Shown here piece by piece: positions 4,901-20,781 of a stretch of 20,781 nt of DNA (the first letter of the stretch is position 1; every line of letters begins with the position of its first letter). Position numbers and translations under genes: made by a program. This DNA is from a virus. Below the pieces are notes generated by a model. It searched no databases and had not been told where the DNA came from. It worked only from the letters and a program-made list of their open reading frames with translations. The DNA lies in the IMG/VR virus record IMGVR_UViG_3300003583_000008, positions 5-20,785 of that record; one strand, 5' to 3'.

Positions 4901-7900
4901 CAAATACTCTTGTGCGAGGTTTCATACGATCAACGTTGAAACCAATATTTCTGGAGCGAATCCAAGGAACTGCAGACTGTGAAAGAATAGTATCACCTTG
5001 AGACTTACGCTCAATCTTTGGCACAACTTTAGTCCTGACACCCTGTCTAGCCTGGTTATTAACAACACGGAATGTGCGACGTTCTTTTAGATAGAAAAGA
5101 CCTTGACGACGCTGACCGTGACCAGCACGACCCAGAGCACGACCAACACCATATGTGCCAGACTGTGACTGGAATCTCTTCGTGGATGTCACTGTCTCGC
5201 CTGTCCAGTTAGTCTGCCAAGATCCCCACTGAATAGGAGCAAATCCAGTATTAGGATCAGCACCCAACTTAGCGGTAGTTGCAGAAAAATCACCTTCAAC
5301 ATTTTCAACTTTTGCAGGTAAACGAACGGTGTCAATCCAATCATCTGATGCAGGTGTCAAGTCAATACGACCAATAAAGGTAAAGACGTTGAATGGGTTT
5401 ACATTAATTGTCCTAGATGCATATGGTTGAGTGATAACAGCAAGATCTTCATAAGGAAGCATCAATACATTGCCATTAGTTTTGACAATATTTGTGGATG
5501 CAGCAGGATTATACTTAAGACCAACATTAGTTGTATAATGTGATGGGCGTAACTGACCTTCTCTGAAGTCTAAAGAGCACTTATAATCTGGACTTAAGAC
5601 ATCACCAACAGTATGATCAGTAAAGTCGTCTACAACATAACCATTTTTCAGACGATCAAAACCATTTTCATCGTAAACATTAGTGTTATCTGCTTGAGAT
5701 TCTAATAATGATAGGGATGTATAGTATTCTACGTTAGTTAATCTATCTTCTAGTGCTCCAATATCTTTCATCGTGTAACGACGAATTACTTCTGATGTAA
5801 TAATTACATCATCTTCAGGATTGAATACATAAGGTTTGTATTCAATGGTTGCCAGAAGCATAGCATTCTGGACAGGTTGTGGTGGAATTAGATAGTAACC
5901 AGACACACCAGAAGTAATTCTCAATTCTCCATCGTGAGAAAGATATAGATTATCAATTCTAGGAAGATACCACGAATAGTCGGATCTAAACGATGTATTG
6001 ACCTTCATTATATCAAAAATTGTCGATCCATTTCCAGTTTCAAATACTCTAGAAACGAAGTCAAACGTAGAGCAATTTACAAAGAATGGTGCAGTGACTG
6101 TGCCAGATCCATTTCTCAATTCTTGAATTGCAGGACGGAAATCTGCCTGGTCACGAATTTTCTTGAGAGATCCATCCAATTTAATGTTTGGAATTTCTTT
6201 GTATAAAATACCACTATAAGATTCTGCAGAGAAATAATCACCCGATGCCTCATGCACAAAGTAATCAAAAATTACCAGTAGTCTTCTAGCAGGTGCTACT
6301 GTGCCTGCATCTCTAACAAATCTAGAGCAGTCATAGAAGTTAGTCTTTTGGGATTGATCTAAGGTAAACTGGTTGGTAATAACTTTACTTCCAGAAAAAA
6401 CTGCATCATCAACATCATCAATAATGCCAGAAATTATAACATCATCTGTATCATATCCTTCTACAGTCTCACCCGAGATAAACGTAGATTCGTTGATATT
6501 AACATAATACAATCTAAGATTTGTGTTAGAGAATGAAATTACTCTGCCTCTTGCACCTGAAGTCTTACCAATAATAAGAGATCCTGTTGCAAAGAATGTT
6601 GACTCTGTTAAGACAATGTATGGCGCAGATGCATCATTATCATCTAAAGACTCGTATACTGCATGAATATTATAAACATCATTAATTCCGAAAGAAATTT
6701 GCTCGTCTTGGACTCTAGTACCAAAGAGAGTACTATAAGTAAGACCAGTTTGCTGCACATCTACATTTTCAGTAGTTTTAATAACTTTCAATGCCTTCAT
6801 CTTAGAAGCGGTCTTAATTTTCTTAGAGACCGTATTTTTAGAAACTAGTGCTGTTAAAGTAACTGTGACTACACCTGTTAAACCTGAAATAGCAATAGAT
6901 TGATTATTGGCACCATATGTAACACTAAGTGTGCCACCATCAGAAAGTGCATCGATATCTAAGTTTGCTCCGTCAGCAAATGTTTGAGGTGTCCCACCAC
7001 CATCAATAATAGTAAGCACAAAGTTTTCGCCATCCAAGGCACCAAATGCTTCGGTTTCTGGAAGTGTAAATGTAATCGATCCAGAAATTACAGGTTTGTT
7101 TGCAAAGTTTCTATAGACAAAGAATGATTCATCAGACAAAGATCTCATGGCATCTTCTGCCAAGTCAAAAGACAATTCTCCGTTTTGATAGTCTTTTTGG
7201 AAGATGTAAGGACGCAATCTAACTAATTCTGCATACTCTCCTTCGATAACACTACCAACTCTCAGACCAAAATCAATAGATGAAGTTTGATTAGCATAGT
7301 TGAAGATTTCATCACCAGCAGATACAGTAGACTTTTTATTAGTTGCTGTTGTTGCAATTGCTGCTGGATTTACTCTTTCAATACGAATAGTATTGTTACC
7401 CTCAACATCAGACACTGTTGGAGTAATAACTTCTCCAGGTCTCAAATCTCTTTCAAATCTAGTACGGAAACCAGTCAGAGAATTTGCTTCGGTAATTTTA
7501 TTAACATCAACAGTTGCTGTGTTACCAGTGAGAGCAGCAACATCAAACGTTAATGATGCAGCACCGCCACTACCAAGTACAGTATCCAAAACTGTAAACG
7601 TTTCATCTACAACATATCCACTACCCTTATCTTCAACTACGATACTGGCAGCACCACTTCCATCAACCGTAATAGTGAAAGTTGCGTTTGTGCCAGATCC
7701 ATCAGTAGTATAGTCTGATGCTCCAATGTTATAAGTGCCAGAAGCTCTGGACACATCAGCAGCACTGATTGTATCTACTGTGCCAACACCATCAGTGAGA
7801 TTGGTATTAGTAATAGTAACGACTTCATCGATAGCATATCCTTTACCAGGAGTATTGATAGTTGCAAGAGTGACAACACCATCATCATCAACACTAAGAT

Positions 7901-9797: not shown

Positions 9798-11330
9798 TTA
9801 GAACTCGATTACGATTTTAATGTCTTCTACTTGGTCATTGGCGCGACTGATCGCACGTCTGTTATCTATATAGATGACTTGTCCAGTATTAGATTTAATC
9901 TCTGGTTTTGCATAACCATTGTTAAATTTCATACCCAAATCATATTCAGTATTGTTAATTGTCCTTGACGCTGTATTTGGAACTGCAGGGAAGTTGATGT
10001 CAGGTTGACCAGCAGCACCAGAAGTTGCACCACTGATGACATTAGATCCATCAAATTCATTCAAAGTACCTGTAACTTCAGGGAAAATGCCATCGACTTC
10101 ATTTTGATAATACTTCAAAACTTTAGTAGTTGCATTCCAACTAACAACCCTCGCTCTAGCAGTAATATTAATACCGCCAATAACTCTAGTTTGTGTGACA
10201 ATTTCATCAGGCACATAATTGCCTTGGAATGTAGGAGAGAAAATAACTGCTTTTGTTGCAGATACTGTCAAATCTGAAATTAATTCAGACGTTCCAAATT
10301 TAAGAGGATTTGTTACAAGACCAATACGACGATAATCGTTATCAATCGGGAAGTCTCCAGCACCTTCATCATATGAAAGTTTCGCATTGATCATGACACG
10401 ATAAGATCCAATCTCAATCGTAGGATCAAAACCATGACCATTTGGAGGAGGAATGATAACATCAACCTGAGCACTTGTGCCAGTGCCGATACCAGTGATA
10501 GCATCAACACTAACTTTACCGAAAGTATAACCCGTGCCTCCAGAAGTTACAGTAGCGGAAATAATTTTACCACCATCAACAACAATAGAAACACGACCAC
10601 CTGTCCCATCACCATTAATACCTACATTGTCGTAAGTGCCATTATTATAACCAGATCCTGCTGAAGTAATGACAACAGTATCAATTTCACCAGCAACTGC
10701 ATTTGTCTTCACCGCATCATTAGAGAAGACTGGCATGTAGTCATTAGAGAAAAACTTCAAAACAGAAGCAACAGGGATGGTGTAAAGATATTTCCAGCGA
10801 TAACCATCAGAAGTAGTGATAATAGAAGTAGAAGTGCCAGTCGGCTCAACTGTGGATGGTTTTCCGTTAGGGTCTGAAGGAGATGTGCCATTGTAGATGC
10901 ACTTATATACTTGATACTGAGAATTCACAACATAAAAGTCGGAATCATACAGTTTAGTTGCACCAGAAGAAGCAGTCTTACTAGGAGAATAATCATGACG
11001 ATACATGTCATAGGTAAAACCTAGACCACCCGTAGTTTGCTCTGGAGATACCCAGTCAATTCTACGGACAACCTGAATCGTATCAGATGCCAAAACTCTT
11101 TTCAAAGAAATCATGTCATCATAAGATCCAGAAAACTCTTGGAAAGAGTCCACTGCTTGGGGTGGAGAATTTTCATTATCCCACGTTTGAGGTCTCCCGA
11201 TGAAGATATACAAACGATCTCTCGTGCCACCAGCATCAGCATCACTTTGGATCGCAATAGGACCTTCTAGTGATTTGATGAATTTACTAGCAGAGAAAAT
11301 TCTAAATTGATCAGTAAGTAAAGCTGCCAT
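9798..11330 (-). CDS. gp8: Baseplate wedge subunit gp8
   Basis: This 510-aa protein is the homologue of T4 gp8, a dimeric wedge protein that links the inner baseplate to peripheral parts. Recognisable blocks in order are IFIGRPQTW (residues 42-50; T4 ITFGRSEPW), VVRRIDW (87-93; T4 VIPRRDW), DGYRWKYLYTIP (175-186; T4 DGYVWEYLFEIP), YRRIGLVTNPL (333-343; T4 FRQISIITNPL), and a C-terminal stretch GQVIYIDNRRAI (483-494; T4 GEMIYMENRPPI) ending DIKIVIEF. T4 gp8 has 334 residues; most of the extra length here is two insertions, about 210-300 and about 352-455, built of GSGY and TSGA-like repeats. It is the first gene of a four-gene unit behind a late-type promoter and is one of the few here with a visible AGGA before the start. 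Assignment rests on recalled T4 sequence. Confidence 0.93.
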   Translation of the reverse strand: MAALLTDQFRIFSASKFIKSLEGPIAIQSDADAGGTRDRLYIFIGRPQTWDNENSPPQAVDSFQEFSGSYDDMISLKRVLASDTIQVVRRIDWVSPEQTTGGLGFTYDMYRHDYSPSKTASSGATKLYDSDFYVVNSQYQVYKCIYNGTSPSDPNGKPSTVEPTGTSTSIITTSDGYRWKYLYTIPVASVLKFFSNDYMPVFSNDAVKTNAVAGEIDTVVITSAGSGYNNGTYDNVGINGDGTGGRVSIVVDGGKIISATVTSGGTGYTFGKVSVDAITGIGTGTSAQVDVIIPPPNGHGFDPTIEIGSYRVMINAKLSYDEGAGDFPIDNDYRRIGLVTNPLKFGTSELISDLTVSATKAVIFSPTFQGNYVPDEIVTQTRVIGGINITARARVVSWNATTKVLKYYQNEVDGIFPEVTGTLNEFDGSNVISGATSGAAGQPDINFPAVPNTASRTINNTEYDLGMKFNNGYAKPEIKSNTGQVIYIDNRRAISRANDQVEDIKIVIEF

Positions 11331-11372: not shown

Positions 11373-14300
11373 TCAAGAAGAAGATCTGACTTGGGTATTA
11401 TAGTCAATTCTTGAAATTGTAAATGATGCTCCATTTTGTCCTGTAATTTTTTCAGCACCCAAAACTGCTTGCAATACAGCATCCTCTCCAGTTGTGTCTC
11501 CAACAGCATTAGTAACTGTTGTTGTAGGATGTAATACATTAGTTTCGACATATTGATTATATCCATATCCACCAGTAGTTATTGTTACTGATTCGATTTG
11601 GTCTCCTGCAACTGTCATAACTGGTGTTGCAACTACACCAATATCACCAATATTTTCAACGGAAATCGATGGCACAGATGAATAGTTAATACCTTGATCT
11701 GCGACAATAAAGTCTACAATTGTGCTGTTTGTAGAGAATTTATATAACAATCCACCTTCACCGATATTTGCATCTCCAGTGTTATATGGCACCACATTAT
11801 TAACCTGCAAGATTTTATCTGTAGGATTCCAAGCAACTACAGTTGCCTGAATTCCAGATTCAGATCCAGTAATAATTTCACCCGTGCTAAAGTTTTGTCC
11901 ATTACCTGTACCCAGAGTCATATTGATCAATGCATCATGAGGAATACCCTCACTCAATTGACCTGCAGTGACTACAGTTGCATAATTAAATGGCAATGTT
12001 GCATCCTTAATACTGTCTCCAACTTGGAAGAGAGTTGTATTCTGTCCACCGACTGTCTCTTCAATACCATACAGAGATACTGCAATACCACCATCCAAAT
12101 TAATTTGATTTTCGTATTGACTACCAGTATTTACTAGATCAGGAATCCCATTTCCAACACCTTCCAATTCGTCATCATCTTCAAAGTCCAATCCTGTAAG
12201 TGTGGAAATTGGTACAGTCAACAAAGTAATCGTATTGCCATCTGAGGCAACCAAAGTGTGGGGATTTGCTCCAGAAGCACTGCTAGTAGGAATTCCAGCA
12301 TCAAATTGCACAATTGCATCTTCGGTAGTTGGAATACCACCGTCAATAAATGCTAATTCATCAACCTCAAATGTTACTAATAATTCCTTGAGATTTGGAT
12401 TCCAATCATATACCTTAGCAACTTTATTCGTAGAGCTTTCTACTCTACGAATAACTCTATCCCCAACATTAAATTTATATTGAGAGATGCCAGCATCATT
12501 ATCTAGATTTGTGTCAAGCACAACTCTTTGATCATATTTAAATGTAACTCCCCTAGTTACACCTGTAAATGAATTGGCAGTTTTTCCTGTATACGAAATA
12601 GTCTCATTCTGAAGGAGTGCATCACCAGATCCAGGGAAAGCACTTGTATTACTAACGTAAATTGTAGTATCAGATGCTTCTGCTTTTTTAAGAAGTCCTG
12701 AAATATAAAGATTGCTAGAATTTAAAGACTGCCTTGCACTAACTTTTCTCCTTAGATTTACAAGTTTTGTGAAAAGGACACTAGGCACCGAAGTGAATTT
12801 AGATCCAGGATCAACTACATCAATACCGACAATTGATCCTTGATCTATTCTGGCAACTGCTTTAGCACCGCCACCACCACCGCCATTAATTAAAATGTAT
12901 GGTGCTTCTTGATAGAATTCTCCAGAATCAATAACATCAATTCTAGTAATTTTGCCTGTTGTGCTAACTTCTGCAGCACCTCTAGCACCCTGTCCACCAC
13001 CACCTTCAAAGATTAGACTTGGTGATGTTGCATATTGAGTGCCTTCATTTAAAAGAGTGAGTCCTGTCACAGATTGTACTACGGGACTTGCGGTTGCACC
13101 TGATCCAGATCCTCCAAGAATTCTTACATTTGCTGGACCAAAATACCCATCACCACTACGAATCATTTTCACATATTCAACTGCACCACTATCGTTTAAA
13201 ACAGGTTCTGCAAGAGCGCCACTAGGGAAATCTTGGGTAACTTCTGGGACTTCATCACCTACAAATAAGGGAGACCCATAGAAAGTCGGACCAACTACAT
13301 ATGGATAAACTGGATTTTGCTGATTATCCTCCGCCATAAAATATGCATAAGTGCCGTTTGGATATTCTGGCGTTACAGCAAATTTGCCATTATGTGCATC
13401 TAAGTTTCCAAGACCTTCTTCATAGATATAATCTTGCACAAAATCACCCATGATATATCCATCTTGGACAGATCTCAATCCAAGACCAGATGTTGAATAT
13501 GCAAAAGCATATAATAGTCTGGGAGCATCAACTAATACACTATATCTCAACTCTCTGGTTGTAGCACCAGTAAAAGAACTAAGGTAGACAGCATATGTAA
13601 CTTCACTGCCATCTATAAAATATCTCATTCCTGCAGAGAAGAGATAATCTAAATCTCCAATAACAGGAGGAGCTCCTACGTGCCAACCATCTTCCGTTGT
13701 AGAGAAGAATAAATGCTCACTATCATTTGAAGAATCGTCTTGATTGAAAATATATTCCTTACCTCTTTCTAAATTTAAAAGGTCTAACTCTTGCCCATTA
13801 AAAAGAAACTTATTATTAGACACAGTAACTGTATAAGTTACTTGACCTTCAGTGTTTTGTTGTGGTCTACCAGCAGTGACTTCATTACCAACTTTCAAGC
13901 GGTAAGATGATGTCATTAAACCAGCAGTTCTTCCCGAAGTATATCCAAAAGGACCATAAATTGGATAACCATCATATGCAACACCAATAATTTTAGAGTG
14001 TCCATCAGCATGTCTGGAATAGTCTGGTAGACCATTCGATAAGAAATTAGATCCAATATAATAATTATTTGGTAGTGGGTCACTGTCATTTGCAGGATCG
14101 AGGATCATATATCCTTCATCACCCTCATATCCAGACATGTATCTGTGATTTTTGCAATAATAATATATTCTATTAGTCTCATCCTCATTCATTAAGAATA
14201 GAGTTTGATATTCATTTTCATAATCTACAGAAGGAGCACCACTTGCTCCAGTGCTATCATAATACAATGTGCCAGTATTCAATGCACCATCTGCAGTAGT

Positions 14301-15509
14301 ACTAAACTGTATAGGATGTCCTATACCCTCAGCATTACTAGAATCAGACTGATTCCAAATAATCAGAGAATTTCTCTTGACTGTAATATTGTCAGGTATT
14401 GGATAATACTCACCTGGTGTAAATGGTCCAAATTCCTGAGCGTTTGGTCCAAATTCAATGTAGTATATATTAAGAGAAACTGGATCATCACTGATAGTAC
14501 ACTTAAATCCAGTATTGCCTAAGAGAAGATCGCCATTTGCAAATGTGCCATTGACTTCTCTCAGATATAATCTTGTAATATTATTGCTACCATCTCTGAC
14601 AATCTTAGCAACTTTTGCATAAGTCTCATTAGTGATAACATCAATTTGTCTACCAACTTCAAAAGGAGCAATAGATTCGTCAATTGATGTTACATCAATA
14701 GCAACGTTACCATACTCAACTTTTATTGTCCAAGTATATGGACGTATAAATCCATTTTCAAAAACACTATTTTTTTGAGCAAACTGACCGATTAACTTAT
14801 TAGTATGATAAAAATAGTTTGAATTGTCTATAACACCATCAAATTCATTATGTGATTTGATATGCTTGTGTTTTACTGTATCAATATTAAAGTTTACTGG
14901 TGCTCCCCCAACACCACCCCAGTCGGGAGTGTGTAGAAGAGTGCCATTTGCAAAAATTCCTAGAGTTTTATTACTCTGAAATGCCCTAGTACCAGAATCT
15001 GGTACATCTTTACCTGCACGATAAATGATCGTGTGGTCATAAGTATTATCTGTTAGGAGAGTATTTCCAAATTCTCTAATACCAGCAAGCAACGCTGGTT
15101 TTGGATTATTATCACTTTCTATACGAAGTCTATCAACAACTTCATTTTCTACAATTTGAAAATTACTTACTGTCTGAGAATTTGGAGTGCTTTGCCAAAT
15201 TCTATTTGGATTGAAAGAATTTACAACATCAGGAGTATCCTGTGAAGGTAAAATAGAAACTCGTATAGGATCATATCCTGATCCAGATTCTAAAACTCTA
15301 ACATGTATAATTCTACCCGCATCATCATCAATAATAGGATAGAGAACTGCTGCCTCTACAGGAGTGCCACATCCAGTAATAGTTAATCTTGGTGGATCGG
15401 AAGAAGTATATCCATCACCACCATTAATAACAGTTACTGATTTAATGCCATATACTTCATTAAATACTGGCTCGATTACTGCACCAGATCCAGGAATTTC
15501 TCTTGCCAT
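11373..15509 (-). CDS. YHYH-domain virion structural protein with cupredoxin-like domains, 1378 aa
   Basis: Residues 1-90 hold two GSGY-type repeats. Residues about 375-470 look like a cupredoxin domain with a complete potential type-1 copper set: His398, Cys452, His455 and Met458 in CKNHRYM. The YHYH domain follows at about 480-745, marked by IIGVAYDGYPIYGPFGY (507-523), SYRLK, then LGNLDAHNGKF and TPEYPNGTYAYF (713-724). A second cupredoxin-like segment (about 560-690), which has lost the Cys-His-Met end, is inserted inside the YHYH domain. Residues about 760-915 are four or five further GSGY-like repeats with poly-glycine turns, and the C-terminal third contains TSGA-type repeats and another GSGY-like unit. 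The gene starts four bases after the 409-aa stop (TAA TTAA ATG), so the two are co-transcribed. YHYH proteins are recurrent in marine T4-like phages without a proven function. A peripheral virion or adhesin role is inferred from neighbours and repeat content. Confidence 0.87.
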   Translation of the reverse strand: MAREIPGSGAVIEPVFNEVYGIKSVTVINGGDGYTSSDPPRLTITGCGTPVEAAVLYPIIDDDAGRIIHVRVLESGSGYDPIRVSILPSQDTPDVVNSFNPNRIWQSTPNSQTVSNFQIVENEVVDRLRIESDNNPKPALLAGIREFGNTLLTDNTYDHTIIYRAGKDVPDSGTRAFQSNKTLGIFANGTLLHTPDWGGVGGAPVNFNIDTVKHKHIKSHNEFDGVIDNSNYFYHTNKLIGQFAQKNSVFENGFIRPYTWTIKVEYGNVAIDVTSIDESIAPFEVGRQIDVITNETYAKVAKIVRDGSNNITRLYLREVNGTFANGDLLLGNTGFKCTISDDPVSLNIYYIEFGPNAQEFGPFTPGEYYPIPDNITVKRNSLIIWNQSDSSNAEGIGHPIQFSTTADGALNTGTLYYDSTGASGAPSVDYENEYQTLFLMNEDETNRIYYYCKNHRYMSGYEGDEGYMILDPANDSDPLPNNYYIGSNFLSNGLPDYSRHADGHSKIIGVAYDGYPIYGPFGYTSGRTAGLMTSSYRLKVGNEVTAGRPQQNTEGQVTYTVTVSNNKFLFNGQELDLLNLERGKEYIFNQDDSSNDSEHLFFSTTEDGWHVGAPPVIGDLDYLFSAGMRYFIDGSEVTYAVYLSSFTGATTRELRYSVLVDAPRLLYAFAYSTSGLGLRSVQDGYIMGDFVQDYIYEEGLGNLDAHNGKFAVTPEYPNGTYAYFMAEDNQQNPVYPYVVGPTFYGSPLFVGDEVPEVTQDFPSGALAEPVLNDSGAVEYVKMIRSGDGYFGPANVRILGGSGSGATASPVVQSVTGLTLLNEGTQYATSPSLIFEGGGGQGARGAAEVSTTGKITRIDVIDSGEFYQEAPYILINGGGGGGAKAVARIDQGSIVGIDVVDPGSKFTSVPSVLFTKLVNLRRKVSARQSLNSSNLYISGLLKKAEASDTTIYVSNTSAFPGSGDALLQNETISYTGKTANSFTGVTRGVTFKYDQRVVLDTNLDNDAGISQYKFNVGDRVIRRVESSTNKVAKVYDWNPNLKELLVTFEVDELAFIDGGIPTTEDAIVQFDAGIPTSSASGANPHTLVASDGNTITLLTVPISTLTGLDFEDDDELEGVGNGIPDLVNTGSQYENQINLDGGIAVSLYGIEETVGGQNTTLFQVGDSIKDATLPFNYATVVTAGQLSEGIPHDALINMTLGTGNGQNFSTGEIITGSESGIQATVVAWNPTDKILQVNNVVPYNTGDANIGEGGLLYKFSTNSTIVDFIVADQGINYSSVPSISVENIGDIGVVATPVMTVAGDQIESVTITTGGYGYNQYVETNVLHPTTTVTNAVGDTTGEDAVLQAVLGAEKITGQNGASFTISRIDYNTQVRSSS

Positions 15510-15513
15510 TTAA

Positions 15514-16743
15514 TTAGCTGACGACGTTGATAGTACCATTCATCAATGCATGAATTGTGCATTGGTAATAAAGAGTATTGGGTGCATTTAATGGGACTGT
15601 CCAATATAGGACGTTAGATCCACTTCCAGATTGCCCATCAGTATATGGTGTGCCAGTTAAACCCTGAGTAGATTGCAATCTAAACGGATGTCCCCCACCC
15701 TGCACCGAATTATCAAATGCATATGTGAATCCACGATACACATAAAGAGTTGGATCATTTTGAGTAGTTGGGAATCCTGGACCAGCAAATGTATAATCTG
15801 AAGCTCCGTTGGCATTCAATTCCCACCAAACAATAGGACTACGAGTTTTGACCCAATCAGTGCCGTTCCAATATAAAGAATCACCTTGGATAATACCACC
15901 AGTGAAATCTGTGTCAGTTAGTGCCGCCATAGATGTAATTGGCGTGCCAGTATAATTAATTGTTAGGGTATCGCCCACAACAGCTGTGCCAATATCTGTG
16001 CCACCAGCAATAACTAATGTATCTGCTTGAGCATCTGCAGTAGTAGACCCACTGTCAGAATCAAATGTAGAAAATATATTTAAAGATGAAATACCTGCTT
16101 GATCATCGGCAGGTTCCCATTTACCAGCAGTATTATCCCACTTAAGCACTTGTCCTTCAGTAGGTGCTACTGTAGTAGTATCAACATCCGACAGAATATC
16201 AATACTAGAATATTCTGTTACGAGTTTTGCTTTTACGTTTCCAGCACCACCTGCAGTGATATTAATGTTTACATAAGGATTATCATCACCGTTGACGGTG
16301 TAGTAATATCCCAAATTATCTCCAGCTGCAGGTCCAGCGGCAAGAGTTGTATATTCATTTACATATTTAATTTTAGTTGGGAAATCAACTAAATTATTTG
16401 CAGAATCAAAAGTTGCAGTATTTGTATTGTATCCAATAGTAACATTGGCACCAGATCCTGGTATGATGGGAATGTTTACACCCGAAGAAGAAACAATACT
16501 TTGTCCGTTTGTATTAAGATTACTTGTCAATTCAGTAATCTCGGTAGGCACAAATTGCGTGCCATTGTAACGTAAAAATTCACCACTCGCGGCATTTGCC
16601 ACATTGATCTGTGCAATAACACCGTTACCAACAGCGGCATACAGCTCGTCAAAATTCGAGTTGATTTTAATGCCGCCGTTGCGAATAGTGTCTCCACTAT
16701 TATCATTGGCAAGTGTGCCTACATTCAGGGTCTGTTTAGACAT
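15514..16743 (-). CDS. gp10-like N-terminus with C-terminal cupredoxin-like domain, 409 aa
   Basis: The first 41 residues match the N-terminus of T4 gp10, the baseplate tail-pin protein: here GGIKINSNFDELY (residues 23-35), in T4 GGIKINENFDELY, with the preceding DNSGDTIRN matching DGTGDYLRK. In T4 this end of gp10 attaches to the wedge protein gp7. The rest does not resemble T4 gp10. Residues about 53-305 contain degenerate repeats (EFLRYNGTQFVP, QVLKWDNTAGKWEP, DSLYWNGTDWVK) typical of phage fibres. Residues about 305-409 look like a cupredoxin domain with His352, Cys395, His398 and Met401; CTIHALM has the Cys-X2-His-X2-Met spacing of amicyanin. It is the first gene after a late-type promoter and is followed within four bases by the YHYH gene. 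A wedge-anchored peripheral spike is the likely role; copper binding is unproven. Length 409 against 602 for T4 gp10. Confidence 0.82.
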   Translation of the reverse strand: MSKQTLNVGTLANDNSGDTIRNGGIKINSNFDELYAAVGNGVIAQINVANAASGEFLRYNGTQFVPTEITELTSNLNTNGQSIVSSSGVNIPIIPGSGANVTIGYNTNTATFDSANNLVDFPTKIKYVNEYTTLAAGPAAGDNLGYYYTVNGDDNPYVNINITAGGAGNVKAKLVTEYSSIDILSDVDTTTVAPTEGQVLKWDNTAGKWEPADDQAGISSLNIFSTFDSDSGSTTADAQADTLVIAGGTDIGTAVVGDTLTINYTGTPITSMAALTDTDFTGGIIQGDSLYWNGTDWVKTRSPIVWWELNANGASDYTFAGPGFPTTQNDPTLYVYRGFTYAFDNSVQGGGHPFRLQSTQGLTGTPYTDGQSGSGSNVLYWTVPLNAPNTLYYQCTIHALMNGTINVVS

Positions 16744-16774: not shown

Positions 16775-16800
16775 TTATCAATCCAACTCAGGATTGATAA
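16775..16800 (-). repeat. Perfect inverted repeat across the end of the large upstream gene
   Basis: TTATCAATCC and GGATTGATAA form a perfect 10-bp stem with a 6-base loop, covering the last codons and tandem stops (TGA TAA) of the gene ending at 16778. No T-run follows on the minus strand (the next bases are CCACATAAATAAC), so it is not a standard intrinsic terminator. It may be a weak terminator, an RNA 3'-end stabiliser or a processing site placed directly before the late promoter. Confidence 0.6.
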
Positions 16801-19800
16801 CTTCAACACCGTATTGAGATAGATCTGGTGCTACCCAATCATCAGGTACTGATGTTTCAACTTCGATCGCGGGAGTCTCATAATTAGATCCGCTATTAGA
16901 AATAATTACGCCACCAACACCGACCAGGGGTTTAATATTTCCATTAAATCCACTAATAGAATCAACTCTAATTACAGGTCTAGAAGTATATCCAGATCCA
17001 GCAGAAGTAACTCTAACGTCGGAAATATAACCAGTATTTAGTATCACTTGTCCCTGAGCATCCTTACCAAAGATAGATCCAAGGTAATCGAAGGTAATCA
17101 GAGAGTTGGAAGATTCGATAACTGCAACTTCACGATCGGATGTCTCGCCTTGGATGTCAATGAAATCACCTGCTTCGATTGGTGGGACAACTTCAGCAGC
17201 ATCAACGTCTGCCTCAGATCCAACGTAAGAGAATGCGACGAAGGTCGATCCCACGCGAGGAATTTCAGAGAAGATGATTCTAGAACCAACGATTTCAAAA
17301 CCAACTCCAGGTTCTTGAATAACACCATTGAGCGAGACGATAATGTTATTTTCTGGTCTGATGTTGGTGGATTGGACACCTTCAGTCAGGGTCAAGGAGT
17401 AGAAGACTCCGTTTCTTCTGAGGTTGAAGGATTGTCTTAGCGAATCGAAGTCGAAAGAGATATCATCTAATTTTCTTAGTTTACCAACGTAGTAACCTGT
17501 AAATGCAGATCCCTGCGAAGGCGGCTCGGTAAACTGAATCTTATCCGCAAATGTTGTGAATCCTTCTCCAGGAGGTTGTAAGATGCCATTAATAAATGTG
17601 AGTAGATGACCTTCAGTATCAGGTAAATATTGAATGCCATTACTAATAGTGAGATCAAATGTAGTCTGGGATCCATCAAATCCTCTAAATGCTCTCTTGA
17701 CTCTACCTTTCAATTCTACAAGATTTGTAATTGCAGATCTATAACCATTGACGGATTTGATGGAATCTCTAGAAGAGAAGGTGCCGATAATTCCGCTTAG
17801 GTAAAGTCTACGATTCAAACCAAACGTTTGGATAGACTGGACGATTGCACTAGCTGCCCCAGAATTTTCAACAGTAGTTGAAACTAATGCTTCACCAATA
17901 GGAAGTTGGTTAATATCAGTATATTGAGCGACTGTTACACCATTTCCAAATGTGCCCTCAATCACAACTGCGTAAAGGAAATTATTTTCCAGATCAACAT
18001 CAGTAATAATTGCTCTTTGTGCTGGGTCTCTTGTACCGTTTACAATCTTATAAAGTATTCCACCCTTAGTAAAGATATTTCTATTATTTTGAATTGTAAT
18101 ACCAAGGACAATATGACCAAGAGATGTAATTCGATCACCAACATTGACCTCAAAAGATCCTCCATATTTGATAACATCAATATACAATCTCGATGTCGAT
18201 GGATAAATTACACTATTAACTTCAAACAATCCAGTTAATGAATCAGTATCAACAACTAATTTGCCATCCGTATTGGTTAATACAGCAGCTTCAATTTTGA
18301 CAAATTCATCTGGCGTAGCAACAGAATTTGATGTGTATCCTTCAAACTGAATATCCTCAGCAAAATCACCTTGGAGATCAATTACTTGAATTCGATCTTG
18401 GATATTACCAATTTGTGCAGTTGTGCCATTTTCATCACCAACCATGGTGTCTAAAATAGTCCATGGTTGACCAGTTATTTCAACATCAAGATAATCATAA
18501 TTAGCATCCGAGTGAATACTATAAACAATACCAGTTACAGTAGCATCTCCCTGCTTTTGAATAGTCTCATTAACATTAAATGGACCATCTGTAATATCAC
18601 CTTCAATACGGAATCTCTTAAATACCTTCACAATTTTTGCTTCATTTAAAGTAGTATTTGAGACTTCAGCGTAAGAATCGCTAGTTTTGCCATAAATGTA
18701 ATCACTATCTTCAATCGCACCAGAAAGTGGTACTAGAAGATCTCTTGTGCCATAGGTATATGTGGGAATAGTGATTCCATTATTTGTGGTAACCGTTGCA
18801 TAGTAATTGCCATTAAGAAGTTGATTTAAAATAATATTAAGATTTTGTCTTATAAATCTAGCAATAGTATCAGTTTGATAAGAAGAAGCATAATCAGAGT
18901 CATAGAATGAAGTGAATCCAGAATTACCTGACGGTGAAGCAAGGACACCATTTAAAGCACTGACAGTAAGATCTTCTAAAGTTTCAATAGCAAATTTCTT
19001 AACATTATATTCTGTATTTGAATAGAAGATTTGACTGGATTCAGAACTGTAAGTATCAAGTCCACCCTCATTTAACTTCATACCCCACATATATGCTTCA
19101 TCATTTAAGTTTGCACTGAAGCTTGTCCCACCTCCTCCTGGAGCACGGAGATACTGGAAGAATCTGACTAATTGATATCCATAGGAAACTGAGAATGTGA
19201 AGTAGAATCTAAACCACCCATTGCCATATGGGACAGAACCATATTCTTCAATATCAAATGCTTGTCCCTGACTACTAATATCGCTAACAACGCCAGTCTC
19301 AATATTGACTCTAGAGAAGTTAATTCTCTGAGTAGTTGAGCTACTATAAGCTTGGATTCGCACGTAAAGCTCATCATAATCAACAGACTTAGCGAAGAAT
19401 GAATATGTAAACTGGCGTTTCGATCCATCACCAGGAGCACCTTCATCAAACGTTGTATTGCTAGTATCAAATCTGATACTACCATTATCTAATGTTTCAT
19501 ATGCAGTTAGATAATAATCCCGATACACATAATGGGAGGTAGTCGCTGTAGTATTTGATCTCCATGCAATTGCAGTTTGTGTTGCATCTGGAGCAAGGGC
19601 AGCAGCATTAACAAGATTCGATCCCGATCGTCTCCAAGTGCTGGTAGTTGCAAACTCTGGATTAGTTAGTAAGTTTGCAGAGATAATTGCTCCTTCAACT
19701 AAAGATGATATATTTCTTGCCGTATTGATAGTTTCAACATTAGCGATATCATTATAATAATTAATTTCAGGTCCAACACCATTGGAAGGAATTTCTGCAG

Positions 19801-20781
19801 TAACCAAACCTTGTGTCAGAGTATCACCATCCGCAAATCCAGATCCAGTGATAGATCCAATATAAAGATTATTACCAGAATCTTCTAACACATTACCAGT
19901 TGTGCCACTACCATTAGTAATTTCTGCATTAACAATAAATCTGCTGTTATCGAGAGAAACAGATAGATCTGTAATAGTGCCAGGATTAGTGGTGCCACCA
20001 CCAGTAAGAGTTGCCGTAGGTGGATTTGCAGGATCGTATCCTGATCCAGGATTAGTAATATTGATAGCAGCAATACCAATACCAGTTACAAGTTCAACCT
20101 CTGCGGTAGATGGTGTGCCACTTTCAAGTGGTGCATTGTTTACCGCAATCGTTGTATCGATACTAAACTGTTGAGCGCCATCGATCAAACCAATTCTAGT
20201 AACACCATACTGATCAAAAGTTCCATCGGTATACTGATCCTGCTGGAATCGGAAGTAGATTGTCTGTGCTCTTGCAAGGGTAGGTAAGGTTATATCAACA
20301 TAATTTAGAGTATTAAAGTTTGTGTATTCTTTAGAAGTTCCAGTTGATCCACCCTCAACAAGTGTATCAATCAATACCCAATTAGATCCAGTAGTAGAAT
20401 AATATAAATCCAAATCTTCATTAAGTTCTGGAGCATTGCCACCGTTACTACCACTACCAGCAATAACATAAACTCTAATAGTTTCTGCATAAGTGGTATC
20501 AAATGGTGTTTGGATAGATGCAAAGCGACTGCCCGATCCAGTGCCAAACAATAGTAACTGTCTACCCGTCAACATTCCACTTGTGCCTGCAGTCATAGAA
20601 ACTGCAGATCCTAATGTTAAAGCACTAATGACTGAATTGTTAAAATCATATACGATACCATCGTATGTAACAGCAGTTACAGCACCATTAGTAAGAGTTG
20701 AGCTACCTCCATGAGAATCACCTACATCAAACGTAGATCCAGTAAATACCAGATCTGGGGAGAATGTATATCCAGATCCAG
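16778..20781 (-). CDS. Very large adhesin/baseplate-type structural protein (5' end beyond window)
   Basis: The frame is open through the right edge; 61 complete codons precede the Met at 20596, so that Met is internal and at least 1333 C-terminal residues are visible. Modules in order are: a GSGY repeat at the edge; a reelin-like segment (about 20494-20171) with LDLYYSTTGSNWVLIDTL and AQTIYFRF; more GSGY repeats; a jelly-roll-like segment (about 19675-19045) opening NLLTNPEFATTSTW, with FTYSFFAKS and NGWFRFYFTF; several TSGA-like units; two tandem fibre repeats (about 17700-17190) with LLTFINGILQPPGEGF and IIVSLNGVIQEPGVGF; and two terminal GSGY units. The C-terminus is APDLSQYGVEVINPELD. 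The modules suggest a surface-exposed virion protein with sugar-binding segments. Its place just before a gp10-like gene and gp8 makes a highly expanded gp7 a possibility, since gp7 carries gp10 in T4, but I see no clear T4 gp7 signature. Confidence 0.82.
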   Translation of the reverse strand, partial: GSGYTFSPDLVFTGSTFDVGDSHGGSSTLTNGAVTAVTYDGIVYDFNNSVISALTLGSAVSMTAGTSGMLTGRQLLLFGTGSGSRFASIQTPFDTTYAETIRVYVIAGSGSNGGNAPELNEDLDLYYSTTGSNWVLIDTLVEGGSTGTSKEYTNFNTLNYVDITLPTLARAQTIYFRFQQDQYTDGTFDQYGVTRIGLIDGAQQFSIDTTIAVNNAPLESGTPSTAEVELVTGIGIAAINITNPGSGYDPANPPTATLTGGGTTNPGTITDLSVSLDNSRFIVNAEITNGSGTTGNVLEDSGNNLYIGSITGSGFADGDTLTQGLVTAEIPSNGVGPEINYYNDIANVETINTARNISSLVEGAIISANLLTNPEFATTSTWRRSGSNLVNAAALAPDATQTAIAWRSNTTATTSHYVYRDYYLTAYETLDNGSIRFDTSNTTFDEGAPGDGSKRQFTYSFFAKSVDYDELYVRIQAYSSSTTQRINFSRVNIETGVVSDISSQGQAFDIEEYGSVPYGNGWFRFYFTFSVSYGYQLVRFFQYLRAPGGGGTSFSANLNDEAYMWGMKLNEGGLDTYSSESSQIFYSNTEYNVKKFAIETLEDLTVSALNGVLASPSGNSGFTSFYDSDYASSYQTDTIARFIRQNLNIILNQLLNGNYYATVTTNNGITIPTYTYGTRDLLVPLSGAIEDSDYIYGKTSDSYAEVSNTTLNEAKIVKVFKRFRIEGDITDGPFNVNETIQKQGDATVTGIVYSIHSDANYDYLDVEITGQPWTILDTMVGDENGTTAQIGNIQDRIQVIDLQGDFAEDIQFEGYTSNSVATPDEFVKIEAAVLTNTDGKLVVDTDSLTGLFEVNSVIYPSTSRLYIDVIKYGGSFEVNVGDRITSLGHIVLGITIQNNRNIFTKGGILYKIVNGTRDPAQRAIITDVDLENNFLYAVVIEGTFGNGVTVAQYTDINQLPIGEALVSTTVENSGAASAIVQSIQTFGLNRRLYLSGIIGTFSSRDSIKSVNGYRSAITNLVELKGRVKRAFRGFDGSQTTFDLTISNGIQYLPDTEGHLLTFINGILQPPGEGFTTFADKIQFTEPPSQGSAFTGYYVGKLRKLDDISFDFDSLRQSFNLRRNGVFYSLTLTEGVQSTNIRPENNIIVSLNGVIQEPGVGFEIVGSRIIFSEIPRVGSTFVAFSYVGSEADVDAAEVVPPIEAGDFIDIQGETSDREVAVIESSNSLITFDYLGSIFGKDAQGQVILNTGYISDVRVTSAGSGYTSRPVIRVDSISGFNGNIKPLVGVGGVIISNSGSNYETPAIEVETSVPDDWVAPDLSQYGVEVINPELD
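16986..17001 (-). repeat. GSGY-coding repeat, exact 16-base copy 1
   Basis: The 16 bases CTGGATCTGGATATAC (minus strand) are identical to those at 20766-20781. Both encode Gly-Ser-Gly-Tyr in the same frame of the same gene, 3.8 kb apart. Near copies with one to three changes occur in the YHYH gene (about 15268-15285) and at about 20036-20052. Confidence 0.7.
17190..17700 (-). repeat. Two tandem fibre-type protein repeats
   Basis: Two adjacent units of about 80 residues share the pattern LLTFINGILQPPGEGF...IQFTEPPSQGSAFTGYYVG and IIVSLNGVIQEPGVGF...IIFSEIPRVGSTFVAFSYVG. This N-G-[IV]-[LI]-Q-x-P-G-x-G-F motif recurs in phage tail and fibre proteins as a small beta-rich repeat. The copies have diverged at the nucleotide level, so this is an old duplication rather than a recent one. 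Confidence 0.75.
20766..20781 (-). repeat. GSGY-coding repeat, exact 16-base copy 2
   Basis: This is the second exact copy of the 16-base GSGY-coding string at 16986-17001. It ends at the window edge, so the identity may extend further. Confidence 0.7.

Follow-up and report, generated by a model that had tools for sequence, protein, structure and literature searches.

A predicted cupredoxin-fold domain without metal ligands in a loop of the YHYH domain of a cyanophage baseplate wedge protein

The window analysed here, a stretch of 20,781 nucleotides, is part of the genome of a T4-like marine cyanophage of the Kyanoviridae type. One of its proteins contains two segments of similar sequence: the first carries a complete His-Cys-His-Met set of metal ligands, whereas the second, which interrupts a YHYH domain, has lost it. 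The question raised by this locus is where the second segment came from. The initial annotation regarded it as an internal duplicate of the preceding cupredoxin-like domain, which had lost its metal site and had been captured by the YHYH domain.

The main genes of the window are all on the minus strand, in the order: end of a giant virion protein, gp9 (15514-16743), the wedge protein, gp8 (9798-11330) and a 2625-aa structural protein. The wedge protein ORF (P0001, 1378 aa; 11373-15509, minus strand) matches phrog_708, 'baseplate wedge subunit', along its full length (residues 1-1376, 2276 bits), and over the queried region it is 98.8% identical to the 'baseplate wedge initiator' of Synechococcus phage S-MbCM25. 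It shares both the full-length match and the order gp9 - this gene - gp8 with the other phrog_708 proteins (T4-like GC 399/1018 of marine cyanophages; S-MbCM25, Syn33, P-SSM4), and is an ordinary member of the family without essential difference. In the open-access literature we found no description of the nested architecture of this family. Some phage records give the ORF the name 'gp7' or 'baseplate wedge initiator'; a phmmer search of the PDB with the whole wedge protein, run as a test of homology to T4 gp7, matched no phage protein. These two names are used inconsistently in the phage records behind loci L083-L088, where they are given both to the giant YHYH ORF beside gp6 and to the ORF between gp9 and gp8.

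Two features of the neighbouring genes were also recorded. The C-terminal part of the giant virion protein (16778-20596, minus strand) has a match to Reelin_subrepeat-B (PF21471, E = 1e-7, residues 10-133). The gp9 protein ends in an intact cupredoxin-like domain (15529-15855, minus strand) with His, Cys, His and Met in the ligand columns; it belongs to the same fold family as the cupredoxins of the wedge protein, but to a different subtype, and forms a clade of its own in the domain tree. Of the related gp9 copies seen, nearly all likewise have the four ligands intact.

The YHYH domain of the wedge protein was recognized by the Pfam profile PF14240 with 74.8 bits (cut-off 25) in two stretches, covering profile positions 90-147 and 140/141-184. 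In other phages the match to the same gene is likewise split, at profile position ~137/141, and the uninterrupted YHYH paralogs in the genomes of those phages are matched in one piece. Alignment with uninterrupted phage YHYH proteins delimited the parts, all on the minus strand. Piece 1 of the host domain (residues ~124-254; 14748-15140) includes YFYH, a degenerate version of the YHYH motif (residues 232-235). It is followed by Insertion 1 (residues ~255-480; 14070-14747), which is absent from the uninterrupted proteins and from the relatives assigned below to class B. Insertion 1 begins with a small beta domain, I0 (residues ~258-344; 14478-14738), which was delimited by its AF2 strands, has no Pfam match and in class A always accompanies the site-1 cupredoxin-like domain (residues ~345-478; 14076-14477). 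In the latter the ligands His398, Cys452, His455 and Met458 are intact. Piece 2 of the host domain (residues ~481-547; 13869-14069), which includes GHSKIIGVAYDGYPIYGP and SYRLK and was assigned by the alignment and the profile match at 90-147, is separated by Insertion 2 (residues ~548-683; 13461-13868) from piece 3 (residues ~684-748; 13266-13460), which includes GDFVQDYIYEEGLGNLDAHNGKF, TYAYF and YPYVVGP and accounts for the profile match at 140/141-184.

This arrangement agrees with the initial annotation in that the similar motifs lie where they had been located (WNQSDSSN..GHPIQFSTTADG at residues ~384-408, FNQDDSSN..EHLFFSTTEDG at residues ~589-607), and that the second segment separates two YHYH blocks, SYRLK (residue 535) and EGLGNLDAHNGKF (residue ~698), which are normally close to each other: the loop at site 2 has 9-62 amino acids in 100 cellular YHYH domains, 10-38 in uninterrupted phage proteins and ~140 in the window. 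The segment, which had been placed at residues 560-690, is real, and its bounds had to be corrected to those of Insertion 2. Its nesting was also correctly described, but the 'preceding' cupredoxin proved not to be outside the host domain: it is nested in the same YHYH domain, after the YFYH motif.

Compared with other YHYH domains, the host domain has retained the DGYPIYGP, LDxxNG, TPEYPxGTYAYF and YPY blocks, but it is interrupted twice and the canonical Asp/His pattern D..GGH..YHYH has disappeared. Uninterrupted phage YHYH proteins (588 aa in ACG-2014d, 538 aa in S-WAM1, giant ORFs in S-PM2 and P-HM1) share the host domain, the aligned stand-alone ones being 34-38% identical to the window protein; they lack a cupredoxin insert, and the stand-alone proteins mostly retain D..GGH..YHYH. 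In a Foldseek search of the PDB the model of residues 124-752 (629 aa) found only multi-cupredoxin and other beta-rich proteins with TM about 0.12. A structural match to the model (E = 2e-7, 10% identity) was obtained in BFVD with A0A5B8IDC5, a YHYH protein of Mimiviridae sp. ChoanoV1, which indicates that YHYH occurs in giant viruses, too.

The YHYH domain has been predicted to bind Zn by three His and one Asp residues and to act as a tail-associated hydrolase (Iyer et al. 2021, PMC7824862). We picked the residues of the predicted site from the conserved motif D..GGH..YHYH, as the text of that paper gives no residue numbers. In these columns the window protein has N, V, F and H, in contrast to D, H, H and H of canonical members. 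The motif is kept in none of the domains of class A (0/23), class B (0/9) and class D (0/6), but in six of seven uninterrupted phage proteins; none of the insert-bearing members examined has the His of GGH or a full YHYH. Among eight cellular YHYH domains six have DHYHYH and two vary inside the YHYH motif. On the basis of these residues the predicted metal site of the host domain appears to be lost in the wedge protein. By inspection, the giant proteins also lack the motif in their YHYH regions, though these regions have no inserts, thus loss of the motif does not imply the presence of an insert.

Is Insertion 2 an integral element of the YHYH domain? None of the 100 cellular YHYH domains (79 loci) has a cupredoxin in the site-2 loop, and a family search in 397 genomes of two phyla yielded 32 near-full-length YHYH matches (552-702 bases), none of which contained an insert of such size. 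These 100 domains and 32 matches rule out that the segment is an integral part of the domain. Its absence outside phages (0/100 and 0/32), together with the split Pfam match, bears out the earlier proposal that it was captured as a domain insertion.

The AF2 model of Insertion 2, calculated from an alignment of 31 related sequences from which annotated phage records had been left out, has a pLDDT of 93.9 and a pTM of 0.87. Its best Foldseek match is the cupredoxin AcoP (E = 1.5e-4, probability 1.0, TM 0.55), followed by laccase domains, rusticyanin and plastocyanin; the cupredoxin matches have TM values of 0.47-0.58 and rmsd values of 4-7 Å. Searches by sequence in the PDB and Pfam, including the copper families, gave no useful match for Insertion 2. 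In the model of residues 124-752 (pLDDT 87.6) the inserts form two separate beta-sandwiches, whose strand order appeared equal when compared by eye from the DSSP line, without superposition, and the second has an additional hairpin and helix. Insertion 2 is thus predicted to be an elaborated cupredoxin, the fold expected if the two segments are related, and shares this fold with plastocyanin, rusticyanin and AcoP of Acidithiobacillus ferrooxidans.

The difference from these cupredoxins and from the relatives of Insertion 2 at the same site, which retain His-Cys-His-Met, is that in the window all four ligand positions are replaced: the ligand columns contain E598, A670, T673 and L676, which do not make up a type-1 (blue) copper site. 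The initial annotation had correctly noticed the loss of the Cys, the second His and the Met, but it regarded the first His (His599) as kept. His599 can be ruled out as a surviving ligand, because it stands one position beyond the ligand column, which is occupied by Glu598, and pairs with the Pro that follows the ligand His. The degenerate state is general among the class A copies: 73 of 77 degenerate site-2 copies retain none of the four ligands and four retain one, while the Cys column contains A, G or S in all 77. The complete HCHM set was found in 83/86 site-1 copies of class A, in 31/108 site-2 copies and in 128/134 copies located outside YHYH domains, gp9 included. Judged from these residues, copper binding by Insertion 2 of the window is not expected.

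To place the two inserts in context, we divided 148 phage loci into classes A to D according to the order of their domains. Class A (the window, Syn33, P-SSM4 and others) has cupredoxin-bearing inserts at both sites. Class B (ACG-2014d, S-RIM14 and about 20 contigs) has the site-2 insert only, with His-Cys-His-Met intact, and lacks the site-1 cupredoxin. In class C the YHYH domain is uninterrupted, and class D (L139-L141) has two tandem YHYH domains with cupredoxins in both loops of each. The alignment shows three tiers: no insert, insert at site 2 only, inserts at both sites. The earlier conclusion that the metal site was lost is upheld by this comparison, since the class B relatives have intact HCHM at a site where 73 of the 77 degenerate copies have no ligand. 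Whole phage genomes of class A encode two YHYH proteins, the giant uninterrupted one and the wedge protein, whereas those of class B encode three, the third being a stand-alone protein just upstream of gp9; S-WAM1 has two, S-PM2 and P-HM1 have one each. A split YHYH domain was found in whole phage genomes only in the gene between gp9 and gp8. These counts and positions suggest that duplication of a YHYH gene next to gp9 gave rise to the wedge gene, and that the stand-alone copy was later lost in class A.

We then compared the two segments with each other. The local alignment of the site-1 and site-2 segments of the window has a score of 57 (shuffled mean 30.4, sd 5.4, z = 5.0), a value reached by 2 of 2000 shuffles, and it is the best match of the segment elsewhere in the 1378-aa protein, although it comprises just 36 columns. 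The profile of the degenerate site-2 copies matched the site-1 domain with Prob 89 and E = 2.3e-6 (hhalign), over 45 columns only. The two segments are homologous, as had been noticed, and have NQ(S/D)DSSN and FSTT.DG in common. These similarities are what an internal duplication, followed by loss of the metal site and capture in the YHYH domain, would account for. The same degenerate profile, however, matched the profile of the intact class B site-2 copies with E = 9.6e-43 over 129 columns: the cupredoxins closest to Insertion 2 are the site-2 copies of relatives that carry an intact insert and have no site-1 domain.

In a tree of the YHYH core, from which the inserts were excluded, class A is monophyletic (100/99), groups with the S-RIM14-type members of class B (98/86), and forms a clade with all of class B (98/95). 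Class A is nested inside class B, and the intact site-2 insert is therefore older than the site-1 cupredoxin. The tree of the cupredoxin domains (121 columns) places the two inserts apart. The 77 degenerate site-2 copies form one clade (100/100) among cupredoxins of the long subtype, which is characterized by the hairpin and helix GVxYxxDGxxVxYxxYxxxFxxAT present in Insertion 2 and missing from the site-1 domain; those of site 1 fall with cupredoxins of the short subtype (L130, L139 site 1; 89/73). The clade that unites degenerate and intact site-2 copies has a support of only 78/76, and a tree constrained to join site 1 with degenerate site 2 is disfavoured by a delta lnL of 9.9 but not rejected (AU p 0.214), so the phylogeny of the two segments separates them in the best tree and, taken by itself, tolerates a joint clade. 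It is the nesting in the core tree, not the domain tree alone, that contradicts an internal duplication of the site-1 domain, by putting the relatives with the intact insert outside the class of the window. Conceivably, class B once had site 1 as well and a precise deletion removed it. Weighing these points we consider the origin of Insertion 2 from the site-1 cupredoxin very unlikely.

A duplication in the reverse direction, in which the older site-2 insert was copied into a second loop of the same domain to form the site-1 cupredoxin, agrees with the order in which the two appear on the core tree. Both sites contain cupredoxins, and in L139-L141 both loops do. But the site-1 copies cluster with the short-subtype cupredoxins and not with the site-2 copies, and the site-1 domain arrives jointly with a different small domain, I0; we find this direction unlikely, too. 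Two further explanations concern the present state of Insertion 2 rather than its source. Loss of all four ligands in 73/77 copies might indicate a functionless relic that is being lost. For 137 class A pairs (Nei-Gojobori, own script) the degenerate insert had a median dN/dS of 0.21, compared with 0.14 in the intact site-1 domain, and the medians of the remaining segments ranged from 0.13 to 0.30; the pairs overlap, are not independent and were chosen by insert similarity, and the estimator is simple, so that these values demonstrate constraint but not its exact strength. At about 0.2, like the rest of the protein, the ratio leads us to reject pseudogene-like decay at site 2. Moreover, none of the complete class A genes found lacks the degenerate insert, the fold of the insert is predicted with high confidence, and RG, F, W, Y and R positions are conserved, which together make the relic the least probable of the explanations considered. 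The insert appears from these ratios to be under purifying selection, which speaks for a structural, metal-free domain rather than decay. Alternatively, the domain might bind a metal or another ligand by a different, newly conserved site, for which H610 in the sequence GWH, nearly invariant across copies, would be the candidate. The intact class B copies, however, have GWH as well, so that it is not a replacement site, and class A has no conserved cluster of Cys or His; this possibility seems highly improbable.

The region of the site-2 loop is a hotspot of insertions. In L070 and L071 an extra intact cupredoxin (wedge protein residues ~529-661) lies just before the degenerate one and breaks the stretch from DGYPIYGP to SYRLK. 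Glycine-rich stretches of ~170-200 aa are inserted in the site-2 region in L075 and L078, and stretches of ~50 aa in L036, L059 and L084. A further insertion in this region is a ~300-aa stretch of Syn33 (L083) with the motif EHVFHTLHMHG, located in the last YHYH block (6150-7073, plus strand of that locus), for which no Pfam match or clear PDB match was found; phages of the S-RIM12 and S-RIM2 types have a long gap in the same region. An insertion of ~140 aa between the site-1 cupredoxin and YHYH piece 2 was found in L063-L068, with no Pfam match above the cut-off. In L139, L140 and L141 the tandem-YHYH protein is encoded in one open frame (locus positions 1 to ~7200). According to the domain tree, one of its site-2 cupredoxins is of the gp9 subtype, which indicates a separate insertion. 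The ligands of its first site-1 copy were lost independently of class A.

The best explanation of these observations, to which we assign a probability of roughly 0.8, is that Insertion 2 is a metal-free cupredoxin-fold domain in a YHYH loop with the following history. The ancestral cyanophage would have had uninterrupted YHYH proteins, a step that we count as established because such proteins persist in the same genomes. As the nesting in the core tree shows, a YHYH copy beside gp9 then gained an intact long-subtype cupredoxin in the loop between SYRLK and GDLD, giving rise to class B. On the stem of class A the block consisting of I0 and a short-subtype cupredoxin would have entered another loop, behind the YFYH motif; judging from the co-occurrence of the two changes, the older insert would have lost its His, Cys, His and Met on this same branch. 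The ligandless domain would since have been maintained as a rigid surface beta-sandwich, as suggested by the purifying selection on it and by its intact predicted fold. Any metal-dependent role may now be carried by the cupredoxins of site 1 and gp9, since their ligand sets are intact. What the domain does is a less certain matter; we somewhat favour the view that it decorates the baseplate wedge as an exposed, metal-free beta-sandwich, which may help the wedge proteins pack against one another or provide a weak contact to the host surface.

In kind, the events are ordinary: insertion of a domain and loss of a metal site. A search of the open-access literature for phage virions with cupredoxin or plastocyanin-like domains gave no paper, which is weak evidence of novelty. 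What looked like a one-off duplication would become a series of ordered events in one of the most abundant virus groups of the ocean, in which the YHYH domain lost its predicted active site, a copper-type domain was gained, then a second one, and the first lost its metal site. A bolder and rather doubtful generalization is that in cyanophage baseplates dead YHYH domains are sockets for cupredoxins, at least two subtypes of which were repeatedly inserted into the same two loops, and that in the lineage of the window the newer insert took over metal binding from the older one; if true, these baseplates would be copper proteins with a swapped metal site. The intact His-Cys-His-Met sets of site 1, of gp9 and of site 2 in class B predict that cyanophage baseplates contain metal, and for this prediction the site-2 domain of the window would be a natural negative control.
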